Origin: Candidatus Stoquefichus sp. SB1
GTDB taxonomy: Bacteria > Bacillota_I > Bacilli_A > Erysipelotrichales > Coprobacillaceae
Assembly: GCF_001244545.1 (NCBI RefSeq)
Contig: NZ_LN852695.1
Coordinates: forward strand, 1-64,000
DNA length: 64,000 nt
Direction of reading: 5' to 3'
The notes beneath the pieces were generated by a model that had not been told where the DNA came from, did not search any database, and was given only the letters and a program-made list of their open reading frames with translations. Positions 51,401 through 55,599 of the stretch are shown one piece after another. Both the position numbers and the translations under genes were made by a program. Position 1 is the stretch's first letter; each line of letters opens with the position of its first letter.

Positions 51401-52462
51401 ATGAGTAAAGTAGATATTATATCAGGCTTTTTAGGAGCTGGAAAAACAACATTAATTAAAAAATTAATTAAAGAAAGTTTAAGCAATGAGAAAGTTGTTT
51501 TAATTGAAAATGAATTTGGAGAAATTGGAATTGATGGAAGTTTCTTAAAGGATGCTGGAATTGAGATTACAGAAATGAATTCTGGATGTATATGTTGTTC
51601 TCTTGTTGGTGATTTTAGTGAAGCATTAGAAAAAGTTGTTAAAGATTATCATCCTGATCGTATTATTATTGAACCATCAGGTGTTGGAAAATTATCTGAT
51701 GTTATTCAAGCGGTTATTAATGTTCATGATGAAGAACTTGTTTTGAATAGTTTTATCACTGTCATTGATGCTAAAAAATGTAAGACTTATTCATTGAACT
51801 TCGGAGAATTCTTTAACAATCAGATTGAATATGCTTCCTCAATCATATTAAGCAGAACACAGGATGTCGATCATGATAAAATTCATACAGCTATTGATAT
51901 TATTAAAGAACTTAATCAAAAAGCTAACATTATCACAACACCTTGGGAAGAATTAACTGGTGAAACAATTTTAAATGCTTTAGAAAATAAAGATTCATTA
52001 AAAGATGTCTTGTTAAAAGAAGCAGAAATTTGTCCAGTTTGTGGTCATCACCATGAACATGATGAACATCATCACGAACATCACCATGATCATGATTGTG
52101 AATGTAAACATGAACATCATGAACACCATCACGACCATGATTGTAAATGTGGACATGACCATCATGAACATCATCACCACGCTGATGAAGTTTTTACAAG
52201 TATGGGTAAAGAAACAATCAATACATATACACATGAACAGTTAGAAAATATTCTTAAAGATTTATCAACCCAACCTCAATTTGGACATATCTTACGTGCC
52301 AAAGGAATCTTACCTACACCAGATAAAAAATGGTTACATTTTGATCTTGTTCCTGGTGAATATGAAATTCGCTATGGTCCAGCCGATTATACTGGAAGAT
52401 TATGTGTTATTGGAAAAGATTTAGTTGAAGATAAAATTGATGAATTGTTTGGTATTGCATAA
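51401..52462 (+). CDS. CobW/P47K-family GTPase with His-rich loop (metallochaperone)
   Basis: A 353-residue COG0523 GTPase. Walker A is GFLGAGKTT (residues 9-17), the metal-binding CICC motif lies at 63-66 (SGCICCSL), followed by a Walker B-like IIIEPSGVGK. Residues about 208-262 are a metal-binding stretch dense in His, Asp and Cys (CGHHHEHDEHHHEHHHDHDC and similar), then the CobW C-terminal domain. Such proteins deliver metal, mostly zinc, to target enzymes under shortage. Ribosome-binding site AGAAGGG. The next gene overlaps by one base and encodes a relative without the CICC motif. Confidence 0.92.
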   Translation: MSKVDIISGFLGAGKTTLIKKLIKESLSNEKVVLIENEFGEIGIDGSFLKDAGIEITEMNSGCICCSLVGDFSEALEKVVKDYHPDRIIIEPSGVGKLSDVIQAVINVHDEELVLNSFITVIDAKKCKTYSLNFGEFFNNQIEYASSIILSRTQDVDHDKIHTAIDIIKELNQKANIITTPWEELTGETILNALENKDSLKDVLLKEAEICPVCGHHHEHDEHHHEHHHDHDCECKHEHHEHHHDHDCKCGHDHHEHHHHADEVFTSMGKETINTYTHEQLENILKDLSTQPQFGHILRAKGILPTPDKKWLHFDLVPGEYEIRYGPADYTGRLCVIGKDLVEDKIDELFGIA

Positions 52463-53403
52463 TGAAAACACGAATTTATTTATTTACAGGTTTTTTGGAT
52501 AGTGGAAAAACTTCATTTATTAATGATACATTAACAACAACTGATTTTTGTGAGGGTGAGAAGTCTTTACTGATTGTTAGTGAACAAGGTGAAATTGAAT
52601 ATAATCAAGAAGAAATTGAAGCTGTGAATTGTGATATCATCTATGTGAAAAGCGAAGATGAATGGACATATGAATTTTTTGAATCATTAAAGGAAAAATA
52701 TAATCCAACTCAGGTTTTAGTTGAATTAAATGGTATGTTTAATGTGAATCGTTTCTTAGCTTGTAGTCTTCCTGATGAATGGCAGGTTGTTCAAGTTTTA
52801 ACAACAATTAATGCGCAAACATTTGGTTTATATATTCAAAACATGAGATCTTTATTATTCCAGCATGTTGTTCATAGTGATTTGTTGATTTTTAATCGTA
52901 TTGATGATTCTATCAAGAAATCATTTTTAAGAAATAATATCAAAGCCATCAATTCTACTTGTCAGATTATTTATGAAAAAGAAGATGGTACTGTCAATAC
53001 ATTAGACGATGATGATTTACCATTTGATATTACTCAAGATGAATTAGAAATCAAAGATATTGATTTTGGAATATTTTGTATGGATGCTTTAGATCATCCT
53101 GATAAATATGCTGGAAAGACAGTCACACTAAAAGGAAAATTTATTGGTAGAGATAAGCAATTAGAAGATGGTTTTGTGATTGGCAGATTAGCAATGGTAT
53201 GTTGTGAAGAAGATACATCACTGATTGGTATGGTATGTGAACATCCAGCTGCTAAACAACTGATTCCAGATGAATGGATTCAAGTGAAAGGAAAAATAAA
53301 TCTTGAATTTGATTCTGATATTGGAGGGGAAGTGTGTATTTTAAAAGTGGAAGACTTGAAAGTCGTTCCACCTTTGGAAAATGAATATGTGACTTTTGAT
53401 TAG
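52462..53403 (+). CDS. CobW-like GTPase fused to a YcgQ-like domain
   Basis: A 313-residue protein. The first 185 residues resemble a CobW G domain (Walker A GFLDSGKTS, SEQGEIEYN, VLVELNGMFN), but the CxCC metal motif is missing. The last 100 residues (ALDHPDKYAGKTVTLKGKFI ... VIGRLAMVCCEEDTSLIGM ... IPDEWIQVKGKI) match the C-terminal OB-like domain of YcgQ/TIGR03943 proteins, which are usually separate and encoded with a YcgR permease. The start overlaps the previous stop (TAATG) without its own ribosome-binding site, so the pair is translated in fixed ratio. Probably the accessory partner of the chaperone. Confidence 0.75.
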   Translation: MKTRIYLFTGFLDSGKTSFINDTLTTTDFCEGEKSLLIVSEQGEIEYNQEEIEAVNCDIIYVKSEDEWTYEFFESLKEKYNPTQVLVELNGMFNVNRFLACSLPDEWQVVQVLTTINAQTFGLYIQNMRSLLFQHVVHSDLLIFNRIDDSIKKSFLRNNIKAINSTCQIIYEKEDGTVNTLDDDDLPFDITQDELEIKDIDFGIFCMDALDHPDKYAGKTVTLKGKFIGRDKQLEDGFVIGRLAMVCCEEDTSLIGMVCEHPAAKQLIPDEWIQVKGKINLEFDSDIGGEVCILKVEDLKVVPPLENEYVTFD

Positions 53404-53437: not shown

Positions 53438-54628
53438 TCATTCATTATGTTTTTCAAGTGAACAATCAATATATTGTTTTCTAATAACATATTGGTAGAT
53501 AAGATAAATGATACATACAATAACAAATAAAGTAATATAAGCTATTTTTAAACCAAATAATTCACCTATAAACCCAACTAATGGAAAATATATAATCATG
53601 GCAAGACTAAAGCCTAAAGATAAGACCGATAAAAGTGTAGCCCTTAAATGACTTTCTACTTTTTCATTAAGAAATGTTGTCATTGCAATATAGAGAATCG
53701 ATTCAAAGAAAGCCATTGTACATATAGCTAAAATAGATATTGGATAAAAAGGTATCCCAATAACTGATATAATAATTCCGATTGGTAAAACAATTAATAA
53801 TGTTTTTTGAGAATACTTTTTTAATATACGATAAGTTAATATTCCTGCAATCATACCAGCTATATTTTCTAATGCTAAAAAGATAGAAATCGAAGAGATC
53901 GATATACCCAATTCACTCCAATAATTTGTCAGATAATAATAACATGTTGTTAATGTTGCTGAAAACAGTGATGTGCTTAAAATAAGATAAAAGATTTGAT
54001 GATCTTTTTGAATCATTTGATAACTCATAACAACTTGTTGTTTCATATCATTTAAAATATTGGTTTTCACATAATCCTGATTCTTAATTTCTTTCATCTG
54101 CATTAATACACAAATAGATATCATCACAATAAGAATTGATAAGCCATAAGTCAACTGATAACTTAATCCAGCAATCATTCCACCTATTGTTGTAGCAAGT
54201 AAAGTGGCTATTTGAATAACAACTTCCCTTCTACCTTGTATTTTAGCAAAGGTATCCTGCTCACTTGTTTCCATCAACAAGTCATAAACATAAGCACTAT
54301 CTGTTCCAGATTCCATCGTATAAGATAAAGCCGATAGAATAAAAGAGAGGTAAATCAACCATTCAGATTGAGCCATCATCAACAACAAGATTGAAACTAT
54401 ATCAGTTATTCTCCCTAATAAACGACTCAATCGCCTTCCATATAAATCACTAATAATACCTGTTGGCATTTCACCCAATACCGATGTAATATGAAATAAA
54501 CTTTCACATATACCTACATCAATTAAAGAAAATCCTTTCACAATCAAAAACGTAGGCCAAAGCAATGATGTTAATCTAAAATTGAGTAAAAACTCAAATA
54601 GATAATTTAAATATAAATTCTTTTTCAT
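53438..54628 (-). CDS. MFS transporter
   Basis: A 396-residue major facilitator with about twelve membrane segments. The loop 2-3 motif appears as GIISDLYGRRLSRLLGR (motif A: GxxxDxxGRRxxL). It resembles efflux carriers of the drug/macrolide type. The start is the ATG at 54628, seven bases after AGGGG; an ATG at 54658 is within the terminator's T-run. It lies behind a leader peptide and an attenuator that look antibiotic- or translation-responsive. The stop is TGA. Confidence 0.85.
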   Translation of the reverse strand: MKKNLYLNYLFEFLLNFRLTSLLWPTFLIVKGFSLIDVGICESLFHITSVLGEMPTGIISDLYGRRLSRLLGRITDIVSILLLMMAQSEWLIYLSFILSALSYTMESGTDSAYVYDLLMETSEQDTFAKIQGRREVVIQIATLLATTIGGMIAGLSYQLTYGLSILIVMISICVLMQMKEIKNQDYVKTNILNDMKQQVVMSYQMIQKDHQIFYLILSTSLFSATLTTCYYYLTNYWSELGISISSISIFLALENIAGMIAGILTYRILKKYSQKTLLIVLPIGIIISVIGIPFYPISILAICTMAFFESILYIAMTTFLNEKVESHLRATLLSVLSLGFSLAMIIYFPLVGFIGELFGLKIAYITLFVIVCIIYLIYQYVIRKQYIDCSLEKHNE

Positions 54629-54635
54629 TATAAAT

Positions 54636-54656
54636 CCCCTTTTCTTTTTGGGGAAC
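54636..54656 (-). promoter_or_regulatory. Possible SD-sequestering hairpin before the MFS gene
   Basis: On the minus strand GTTCCCC (54650-54656) lies between the attenuator and AGGGG (54636-54640, the Shine-Dalgarno of the MFS gene). CCCC can pair with the SD, or GTTCCCC can pair back to GGGGAAC at 54709-54715. This adds a second level of control. Confidence 0.5.
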
Positions 54657-54685
54657 AAAAAAAGATTCCATAATAATATGGAACC
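54656..54685 (-). terminator. Attenuator terminator upstream of the MFS gene
   Basis: Minus strand: GGTTCCATA / TATGGAATC stem (54664-54685) followed by eight Ts. GGTTCC can instead pair with GGAACC at 54708-54713, directly after the leader-peptide stop, which would prevent termination. Confidence 0.78.
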
Positions 54686-54715
54686 TCTATCTATAATTTC
54701 TGTTTATGGTTCCCC

Positions 54716-54823
54716 TTATTTTGGGCGCACTCGTCCCTTGTTAGAAAAACCAAAATTTGAAGTTTCTGTGCGACGCCATGCATCATGAAATTGAACAATA
54801 TGATATTGTAAATCTGTATACAT
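54716..54823 (-). CDS. 35-residue leader peptide of the MFS gene
   Basis: A short frame with a near-perfect ribosome-binding site (GGAGGTGA, six bases from the ATG). The sequence starts MYTDLQYHIVQFHDAWRR and ends FSNKGRVRPK. An overlapping ATG at 54827 opens only 14 codons. The stop codon abuts the antiterminator arm GGGGAACC. In leader-peptide attenuation, a ribosome stalled by an antibiotic near the end of such a frame changes the fold downstream. The bulky, basic C-terminal end is suitable for stalling. The peptide's family is not one I can name with certainty. Confidence 0.72.
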   Translation of the reverse strand: MYTDLQYHIVQFHDAWRRTETSNFGFSNKGRVRPK

Positions 54824-54848
54824 GCATCTCACCTCCTCAATTATTTAT

Positions 54849-54877
54849 ATTTTAACACTTTTATCAATTATTGTCTA
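54849..54877 (-). promoter_or_regulatory. Promoter of the leader-MFS unit
   Basis: Minus strand: -35 TAGACA (54872-54877), 17-base spacer, -10 TAAAAT (54849-54854). It gives a 5' leader of about 210 bases before the MFS start. Confidence 0.65.
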
Positions 54878-54894: not shown

Positions 54895-55506
54895 TCACTT
54901 AAATGCTTTTCTTATCAATATGAATAGGATTCCACTCAAAAACATAGCAATCAATAGTGGTAAATACATATATATGATACCAAAATGACTATTCATCATT
55001 GAAGAAAATTTCATATAAAACAAATTAAATGTTTGTGTATATGTTACAAAGTACTTAACTGGCAATAACGTAACAAGCCATATACATATACTCCAAAATT
55101 TCCAGTGTATTTGATCATTATGAAGTGTAATCACAAAATACTCAAATATACCTATCCCTACAATCTGAATAAACATACCTACTAATAACGAGAAAGAATT
55201 TTGATATTGATTCCATAATATATGTGCACTTATCACTCCAAATAAAACCATTAATAACGATATAACAAATACCTTTTGACATGTTTCATTCTCTTTTTGA
55301 TCATTCACAATAATATCCTTTAATAAATAATCCGTTGATACATGATAAAGTTCACTAATCATAACAATATTATTTAACTCTGGTTGACTTTCCCCTAATT
55401 CCCATTTACTGATAGATTGCCTTGAAACATTCAATTCATTTGCTAATTCCTGTTGTGACATACCTTTTTCTTTTCTTAATTTTAATAATTTATCTTTAAG
55501 TTCCAT
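54895..55506 (-). CDS. XRE-family regulator with membrane domain
   Basis: A 203-residue protein: N-terminal Cro/C1 HTH (LRKEKGMSQQELANELNVSRQSISKWELGESQPELNNIVMISELY), then about four hydrophobic segments from residue 85. This fused layout is widespread in gut Firmicutes and may sense membrane state. The start is the ATG at 55506, six bases after AAAGGAG; a longer reading from 55569 adds residues before the HTH and has no such site. It precedes the leader-MFS unit on the same strand. Confidence 0.85.
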   Translation of the reverse strand: MELKDKLLKLRKEKGMSQQELANELNVSRQSISKWELGESQPELNNIVMISELYHVSTDYLLKDIIVNDQKENETCQKVFVISLLMVLFGVISAHILWNQYQNSFSLLVGMFIQIVGIGIFEYFVITLHNDQIHWKFWSICIWLVTLLPVKYFVTYTQTFNLFYMKFSSMMNSHFGIIYMYLPLLIAMFLSGILFILIRKAFK

Positions 55507-55599
55507 TTCATACTCCTTTCTATGCATCTCTATCATAACAAATTCTTTGAAAGCATGCGACATAATCAACTAGGCATTTACGCACGTAACAGTTGCATA

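Follow-up and report, generated by a model that had tools for sequence, protein, structure and literature searches.

How is the expression of an MFS transporter gene controlled when the encoded protein offers few clues, and to what signal would that control respond? The question is raised by a locus in Candidatus Stoquefichus sp. SB1, within the 64,000-nt stretch of contig NZ_LN852695.1 analyzed here as a whole (hereafter, the window). The 396-aa protein matches Pfam MFS_1, but it reaches the cut-off of no specific NCBIfam family, and assigning a substrate by homology was abandoned since there was no informative relative. An earlier note, made from the letters of the sequence, had proposed that the gene is governed by a leader peptide and an attenuator. 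We examined this proposal by comparative analysis, pairing tests and RNA folding.

Results

Organization of the MFS Leader

The elements of the locus, all on the minus strand, are as follows.

54849..54877 (-), likely sigma-70 promoter, TAGACA-17-TAAAAT with TG before the -10 (consensus scan, 10/12 matches; promoter-grade matches occur at about chance frequency, 3 found vs. 2.5 expected)
54832..54837 (-), leader Shine-Dalgarno AGGAGG, 8 nt 5' of the leader ATG (sequence)
54716..54823 (-), leader peptide ORF, ATG at 54823, 35 codons plus TAA, MYTDLQYHIVQFHDAWRRTETSNFGFSNKGRVRPK (orthologs and homologous ABC-F leaders)
54755..54784 (-), conserved-motif codons, here DAWRRTETSN, the putative arrest segment (codon substitution pattern in 12 ABC-F leaders)
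54768..54784 (-), block A, GATGCATGGCGTCGCAC, family form GATGCTTTTTGTCGTAC (nearly invariant nucleotides)
54744..54751 (-), arm 0, GGTTTTTC, within the leader coding sequence, pairing with arm 1 in the locked OFF form (partner-swap test)
54723..54737 (-), block B, GGGACGAGTGCGCCC, an RNA-level element inside the arm 0:arm 1 helix (near-identical in most of 15 members)
54708..54715 (-), arm 1, GGGGAACC, adjoining the leader stop; partners are arm 0 (OFF) and the terminator arm plus arm 2 (ON) (partner swaps, folding)
54657..54687 (-), intrinsic terminator (54687-54662) plus U-run, its first arm holding GGTTCC (54685-54680) (scan, the single one found vs. 0.1 expected in shuffles; hairpin -12.5 kcal/mol)
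54650..54656 (-), arm 2, GTTCCCC, anti-Shine-Dalgarno segment, also capturable by arm 1 (partner-swap test)
54636..54639 (-), MFS Shine-Dalgarno core GGGG (predicted accessibility by folding)
53438..54628 (-), MFS transporter gene, 396 aa, ATG at 54628 (Pfam MFS_1, E = 1.2e-25)

Several of these elements had been described in the earlier note and were recovered here from the minus strand: the promoter, the 35-codon frame with its strong ribosome-binding site, and an antiterminator arm placed directly after the TAA (54715-54708). The terminator has a first arm that can be captured, as claimed, GGTTCC being complementary to GGAACC of arm 1; the second alternative pairing, over the MFS Shine-Dalgarno, is likewise available, since GTTCCCC of arm 2 is complementary both to GGGGAAC and to GGGG. 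The note's RNA logic had overlooked arm 0, however, and the attenuator holds together once the lock formed by this segment is added. When the 221-nt leader was folded, z was -5.3 and none of 200 shuffles folded equally well.

A Leader Family in Erysipelotrichales

A search with the leader peptide among 98 relatives gave two strong matches, each directly 5' of an orthologous MFS gene. The earlier note had named lack of conservation across relatives as grounds for refuting its reading; at 69% and 51% identity, the peptide passed. All three MFS leaders end in GRVRPK, and a 23-nt string, AAGGGACGAGTGCGCCCAAAATA, is identical across the three loci. A search of 316 genomes of the order for this string, allowing mismatches, brought up six more loci, all 5' of ABC-F genes, and most of them share the ending of the MFS leaders. 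A sequence model of the leader core gave strong matches in 15/311 genomes of Erysipelotrichales. The layout recurs at two orthologous MFS loci and 12 ABC-F loci. Because the model was trained partly on these same loci, an additional profile was built from the ABC-F leaders alone; the leader studied here was its best match in the 64-kb window (E = 2.5e-4), vs. a best E of 1.0 in the reversed window. A Shine-Dalgarno-like sequence precedes the leader start in 15/15 members, and the frame that follows it is open through block A in every one, so that each member is predicted to hold a short ORF with its own ribosome-binding site 5' of the regulated gene.

The family appears to be restricted in its distribution. 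In a pattern scan of 84,980 genomes, real matches were confined to Erysipelotrichales (Erysipelothrix, Anaerorhabdus, Breznakia, Dielma, Traorella, a MAG, and Stoquefichus), and matches outside the order lay inside large GC-rich ORFs where inspected. The leader-core model found no full-length match outside the order in a 395-genome sample of the class, where the single weak match was partial; other weak matches to the leader peptide or the model (E above ~1e-4) were partial or within unrelated genes where inspected. A mobile resistance cassette was considered and set aside, as plasmids had no match and a phage match was at chance level. Rfam gave no match above the gathering score in the window leader, its orthologs or six ABC-F loci. 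In a literature search that covered few subscription journals, neither the motif strings in this context nor any described leader from Erysipelotrichales (gut commensals, Erysipelothrix) was found. Apparently, then, the leader belongs to an undescribed family.

The leader is exclusive to one MFS clade and one ABC-F clade. The MFS ortholog occurs in 3/43 genomes of the family, with the leader in front of it in 3/3, and a ribosomal-protection-like ABC-F gene is preceded by the leader in 12/12 orthologs of the order. An ABC-F protein sharing 43-100% identity with that of Breznakia is encoded in twelve genomes, and the ABC-F leader occurs in exactly these twelve. The remaining ABC-F matches had ≤40% identity and lay, with few exceptions, in frames of ~620 codons; the genomes concerned are without the leader except for those that also hold the MFS or ABC-F version. 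The two ABC-F proteins tested in full scored 425 and 427 bits vs. the NCBIfam ribosomal-protection-like cut-off of 380. One locus, L105 (G219:C1:1893226-1894152), has an intact leader that matches the leader of Erysipelothrix sp. HDW6A; its ABC-F match spans residues 1-315 only and holds two in-frame TAG codons, on which account the gene looks broken.

Alternative Pairings Covary Among Members

Four segments recur in the family: arm 0 just 5' of block B, arm 1 just 3' of it, arm 2 after the terminator U-run, and the Shine-Dalgarno. The terminator lies between arm 1 and the gene in 15/15 members. Pairing energies were compared with those obtained after swapping partners, using one representative per close group (12) and 20,000 permutations. 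Each arm pairs better with its own partner: the mean for arm 0:arm 1 was -13.0 vs. -8.0 swapped (0/20,000), for arm 1:arm 2 it was -14.5 vs. -8.3 (0/20,000), and for arm 2:Shine-Dalgarno -10.4 vs. -7.9 (0/20,000).

Capture of the terminator arm, as the earlier note had it, stands for the MFS loci, where arm 1 complements the first arm of the terminator at -10.9 kcal/mol in all three. The pairing is weak elsewhere, and direct capture was rejected as a family-wide rule; the switch shared by most ABC-F members is instead release of the Shine-Dalgarno. Complementarity between linker and terminator also exceeds that of swapped partners (1/20,000 with the U-run included), and it may serve antitermination in the ABC-F members. 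Blocks A and B could pair with each other in 15/15 members (-8 to -14 kcal/mol); this helix would enclose arm 0, and in combination with arm 0:arm 1 a pseudoknot would result. As a proven helix, A:B was rejected: its covariation is not significant (p ~0.28), and blocks this invariant cannot reveal any.

Predicted Switching with Ribosome Position

Codons were numbered relative to the Asp codon of the peptide motif (D0), and to model the ribosome, RNA was masked as far as 16 nt from the P-site codon, counted from its first base. The antiterminator was computed on a transcript ending just after the first arm of the terminator. At the window locus, its probability was 0.11 on naked RNA and at most 0.13 through D+5, rose to 0.97-1.00 from D+6 to D+18, and was 0.00 from D+19 onward. 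Across all three MFS loci the corresponding values were 0.01-0.11 naked and 0.90-1.00 for D+6 through D+18, falling to 0 from D+19. D+6 is likewise the codon at which the other two loci turn on, with an OFF state that is less clean for some earlier positions (up to 0.81). At equilibrium, the finished terminator (-12.5 kcal/mol) beats the antiterminator (-6.3), and antitermination in the MFS loci must therefore be kinetic, depending on the order of folding during transcription.

The MFS Shine-Dalgarno was predicted to be unpaired with a probability of 0.00 on naked RNA, 0.12-0.29 at D+6 to D+10 and 0.00 with the ribosome on the stop codon. Its exposure in the MFS loci also rises at ~D+14 to D+17 and is likewise lost at the stop. 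A similar rise was seen in most ABC-F members, with little change in Traorella massiliensis and Dielma and a peak at D+6 only in Breznakia. In these computations, ribosome position sets mutually exclusive RNA structures. Together, the exposure and antiterminator profiles indicate that the conserved peptide segment ends where the switch is most responsive, although the window obtained by folding (D+6 to D+18) is wider than the motif itself.

Separate Selection on Peptide and RNA

The conserved part of the peptide is its middle, D-A-[FW]-C-R-T-I-T-F-T, and not its C-terminal end. In the 12 ABC-F leaders, codons T5-T9 show 7, 4, and 26 deviations at positions 1, 2, and 3, respectively, with 21 deviations synonymous and 9 not. 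Flanking codons are without this third-position bias (46, 35, and 44 for codons -8 to -1; 23, 22, and 23 for codons 10 to 14), and codons D0 to R4 barely vary, synonymous sites included. The MFS leaders diverge inside the motif (RRTETSN, CHTITFF).

Block B, GGGACGAGTGCGYCC, behaves differently: most members read it as GRVRP, Traorella and a relative read it as GTSAS, and Dielma reads it as RDECV; several members carry GQVR at the leader end. The third-position bias at T5-T9 and the reading of block B in three frames lead us to conclude that selection acts on the mid-peptide at the protein level and on block B, probably together with block A, at the RNA level. The case offers an unusually clear natural experiment on peptide- and RNA-selected parts of a leader, thanks to the three frames in which a conserved block is read. 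In five leaders (L043, L055, L049, L073, and L074), slight differences in the length between blocks A and B put block B in another frame; their C-terminal peptide is wholly altered and the nucleotides are kept, with block B itself also diverged in L074. Such frame changes rule out a C-terminal RVR macrolide-arrest motif as the conserved feature of the family.

Discussion

Taken at the MFS locus, conserved leader, covarying arms and folding behavior fit a ribosome-mediated attenuator of both transcription and translation, and we think it probable that ribosomes stalling mid-leader induce the MFS transporter. In the OFF state, the leader would be translated to its stop codon or be free of ribosomes; arm 1 would lie under the terminating ribosome or be locked in a pairing with arm 0, the terminator would form, and arm 2 would mask the Shine-Dalgarno of any read-through RNA. 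In the ON state, an inhibitor would stall the ribosome on D-A-[FW]-C-R-T-I-T-F-T with the P site near codon D+6, where it would cover arm 0 and leave arm 1 free to capture the first arm of the terminator and, afterwards, arm 2; RNA polymerase would then read through and the Shine-Dalgarno would be exposed. The strongest new support is that the same device stands before ribosomal-protection-like ABC-F genes in related bacteria; the pump is therefore probably induced by an antibiotic that halts ribosomes at a single conserved point of the leader peptide. A translation inhibitor, as the earlier note supposed, is the likely inducer, and the MFS protein may export that same drug.

It is conceivable that blocks A and B instead form a ligand- or protein-binding RNA akin to a riboswitch, the ORF being secondary, the arm 0:arm 1 helix a sensor stem and the terminator the output. 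The near invariance of both blocks in nucleotides, the retention of block B though it is read in three frames, the A:B pairing available in every member and a covarying stem around a conserved core, as found in riboswitches, all agree with this. We nevertheless consider it unlikely, because substitutions at T5-T9 are of the protein type (26 at third positions vs. 7 and 4) and every member keeps a Shine-Dalgarno-preceded frame open through block A. Moreover, a guanidine-type or other known riboswitch, brought to mind by the string GGGACGAGUGCG, was dismissed when a low-threshold Rfam search returned only chance-level matches.

Two further readings keep the stalled ribosome and change its cause. 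Arrest by a macrolide-type drug at the C-terminal R-V-R would draw on a known signal, as this is the +X+ macrolide-arrest motif (PMC10314930), three of three MFS leaders end in GRVRPK, and a stall at ~D+17 to D+18 also frees arm 1 in folding. The same nucleotides encode GTSAS or RDECV in other members, however, with GQVR in several, and no R/K-X-R/K is conserved at an arrest site across the family, RVR not being kept as peptide; we regard this reading as very improbable. Still harder to credit is amino-acid attenuation, in which the leader would sense a shortage of charged tRNA (e.g., for threonine, arginine, or cysteine) rather than a drug. The motif does place Thr at positions 5, 7, and 9 beside Cys-Arg, and any cause of stalling would flip the switch, but the leader has no run of regulatory codons, and the regulated genes encode a drug-efflux-superfamily transporter and a ribosomal-protection-like ABC-F protein, not biosynthetic enzymes.

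For the mid-leader attenuator that we favor, a phenicol or oxazolidinone is our guess at the inducer. Chloramphenicol and linezolid prefer Ala, then Ser or Thr, at the penultimate position (PMC8987054). Residue 5 of the motif is Thr, once Ala; with the P site at D+6, where the antiterminator turns on, it would be penultimate, which fits these context rules. We tentatively propose, as a possibility that could well prove wrong, that D-A-[FW]-C-R-T-I-T-F-T defines a new family of arrest peptides sensing phenicol/oxazolidinone-type drugs, carried as a portable module with frame-independent blocks A and B before two unrelated mechanisms, efflux and ribosome protection.

In ermC-type translational attenuators, four successive segments pair as 1:2 and 3:4 or as 2:3, driven by a stalled leader ribosome. 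The four-segment switching here is alike; the differences are a terminator that separates segments 2 and 3, and a longer leader in which the stall is predicted to fall ~20 codons deep. Closer in the genes regulated are the streptococcal mefA/msrD leaders (mefAL and MsrDL, the latter MYLIFM), which attenuate a macrolide efflux gene, mefA, and an ABC-F gene (PMC10314930). Those are two different short leaders in one operon; ours form a single family that stands before MFS genes in some genomes and ABC-F genes in others. In Clostridioides difficile, cplR resembles our loci: the ABC-F resistance gene is preceded by a uORF (MRI) and an intrinsic terminator, its Shine-Dalgarno is masked, and transcription and translation attenuation are combined; the uORF consensus, however, is three codons of unrelated sequence, the terminator stem itself masks the Shine-Dalgarno, and cplR is not known to have conserved RNA blocks like A and B (PMC10201436). 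Reportedly, vmlR of Bacillus subtilis likewise combines a uORF with both levels of attenuation of an ABC-F gene (PMC9226507), its very short uORF (consensus MIN, PMC10201436) being unrelated in sequence. The ABC-F uORF consensus sequences given in PMC10201436 are short, namely MR[I/M], MIN, MK[L/Q], and MAGN; compared with described ABC-F leaders (cplR, vmlR, vmlR2, lsaA, msrD), the family has leaders of ~35-43 codons with DA[FW]CRTITFT and does not share their consensus. Attenuation of efflux and ABC-F genes (mefA/msrD) and dual attenuation (cplR, vmlR) being on record, the kind of control is already known; what appears to be new is the leader family, with its length, its RNA blocks and its use by two types of gene in different genomes.

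If the proposed mechanism is correct, it would define an inducible-resistance sensor for Erysipelotrichales, both gut commensals and Erysipelothrix, and would tie an unannotated MFS transporter to an antibiotic response by way of its control region and not by its own sequence.

As for the surroundings of the locus, the gene immediately 5' of the leader (54898-55518, minus strand) encodes an XRE-type HTH protein whose C-terminal segments are hydrophobic and which may be a membrane-bound regulator. Two tandem genes for CobW-type GTPases lie at 51401-53403 (plus strand); long His-rich stretches in the first and a C-terminal DUF1980 domain in the second suggest metal handling.
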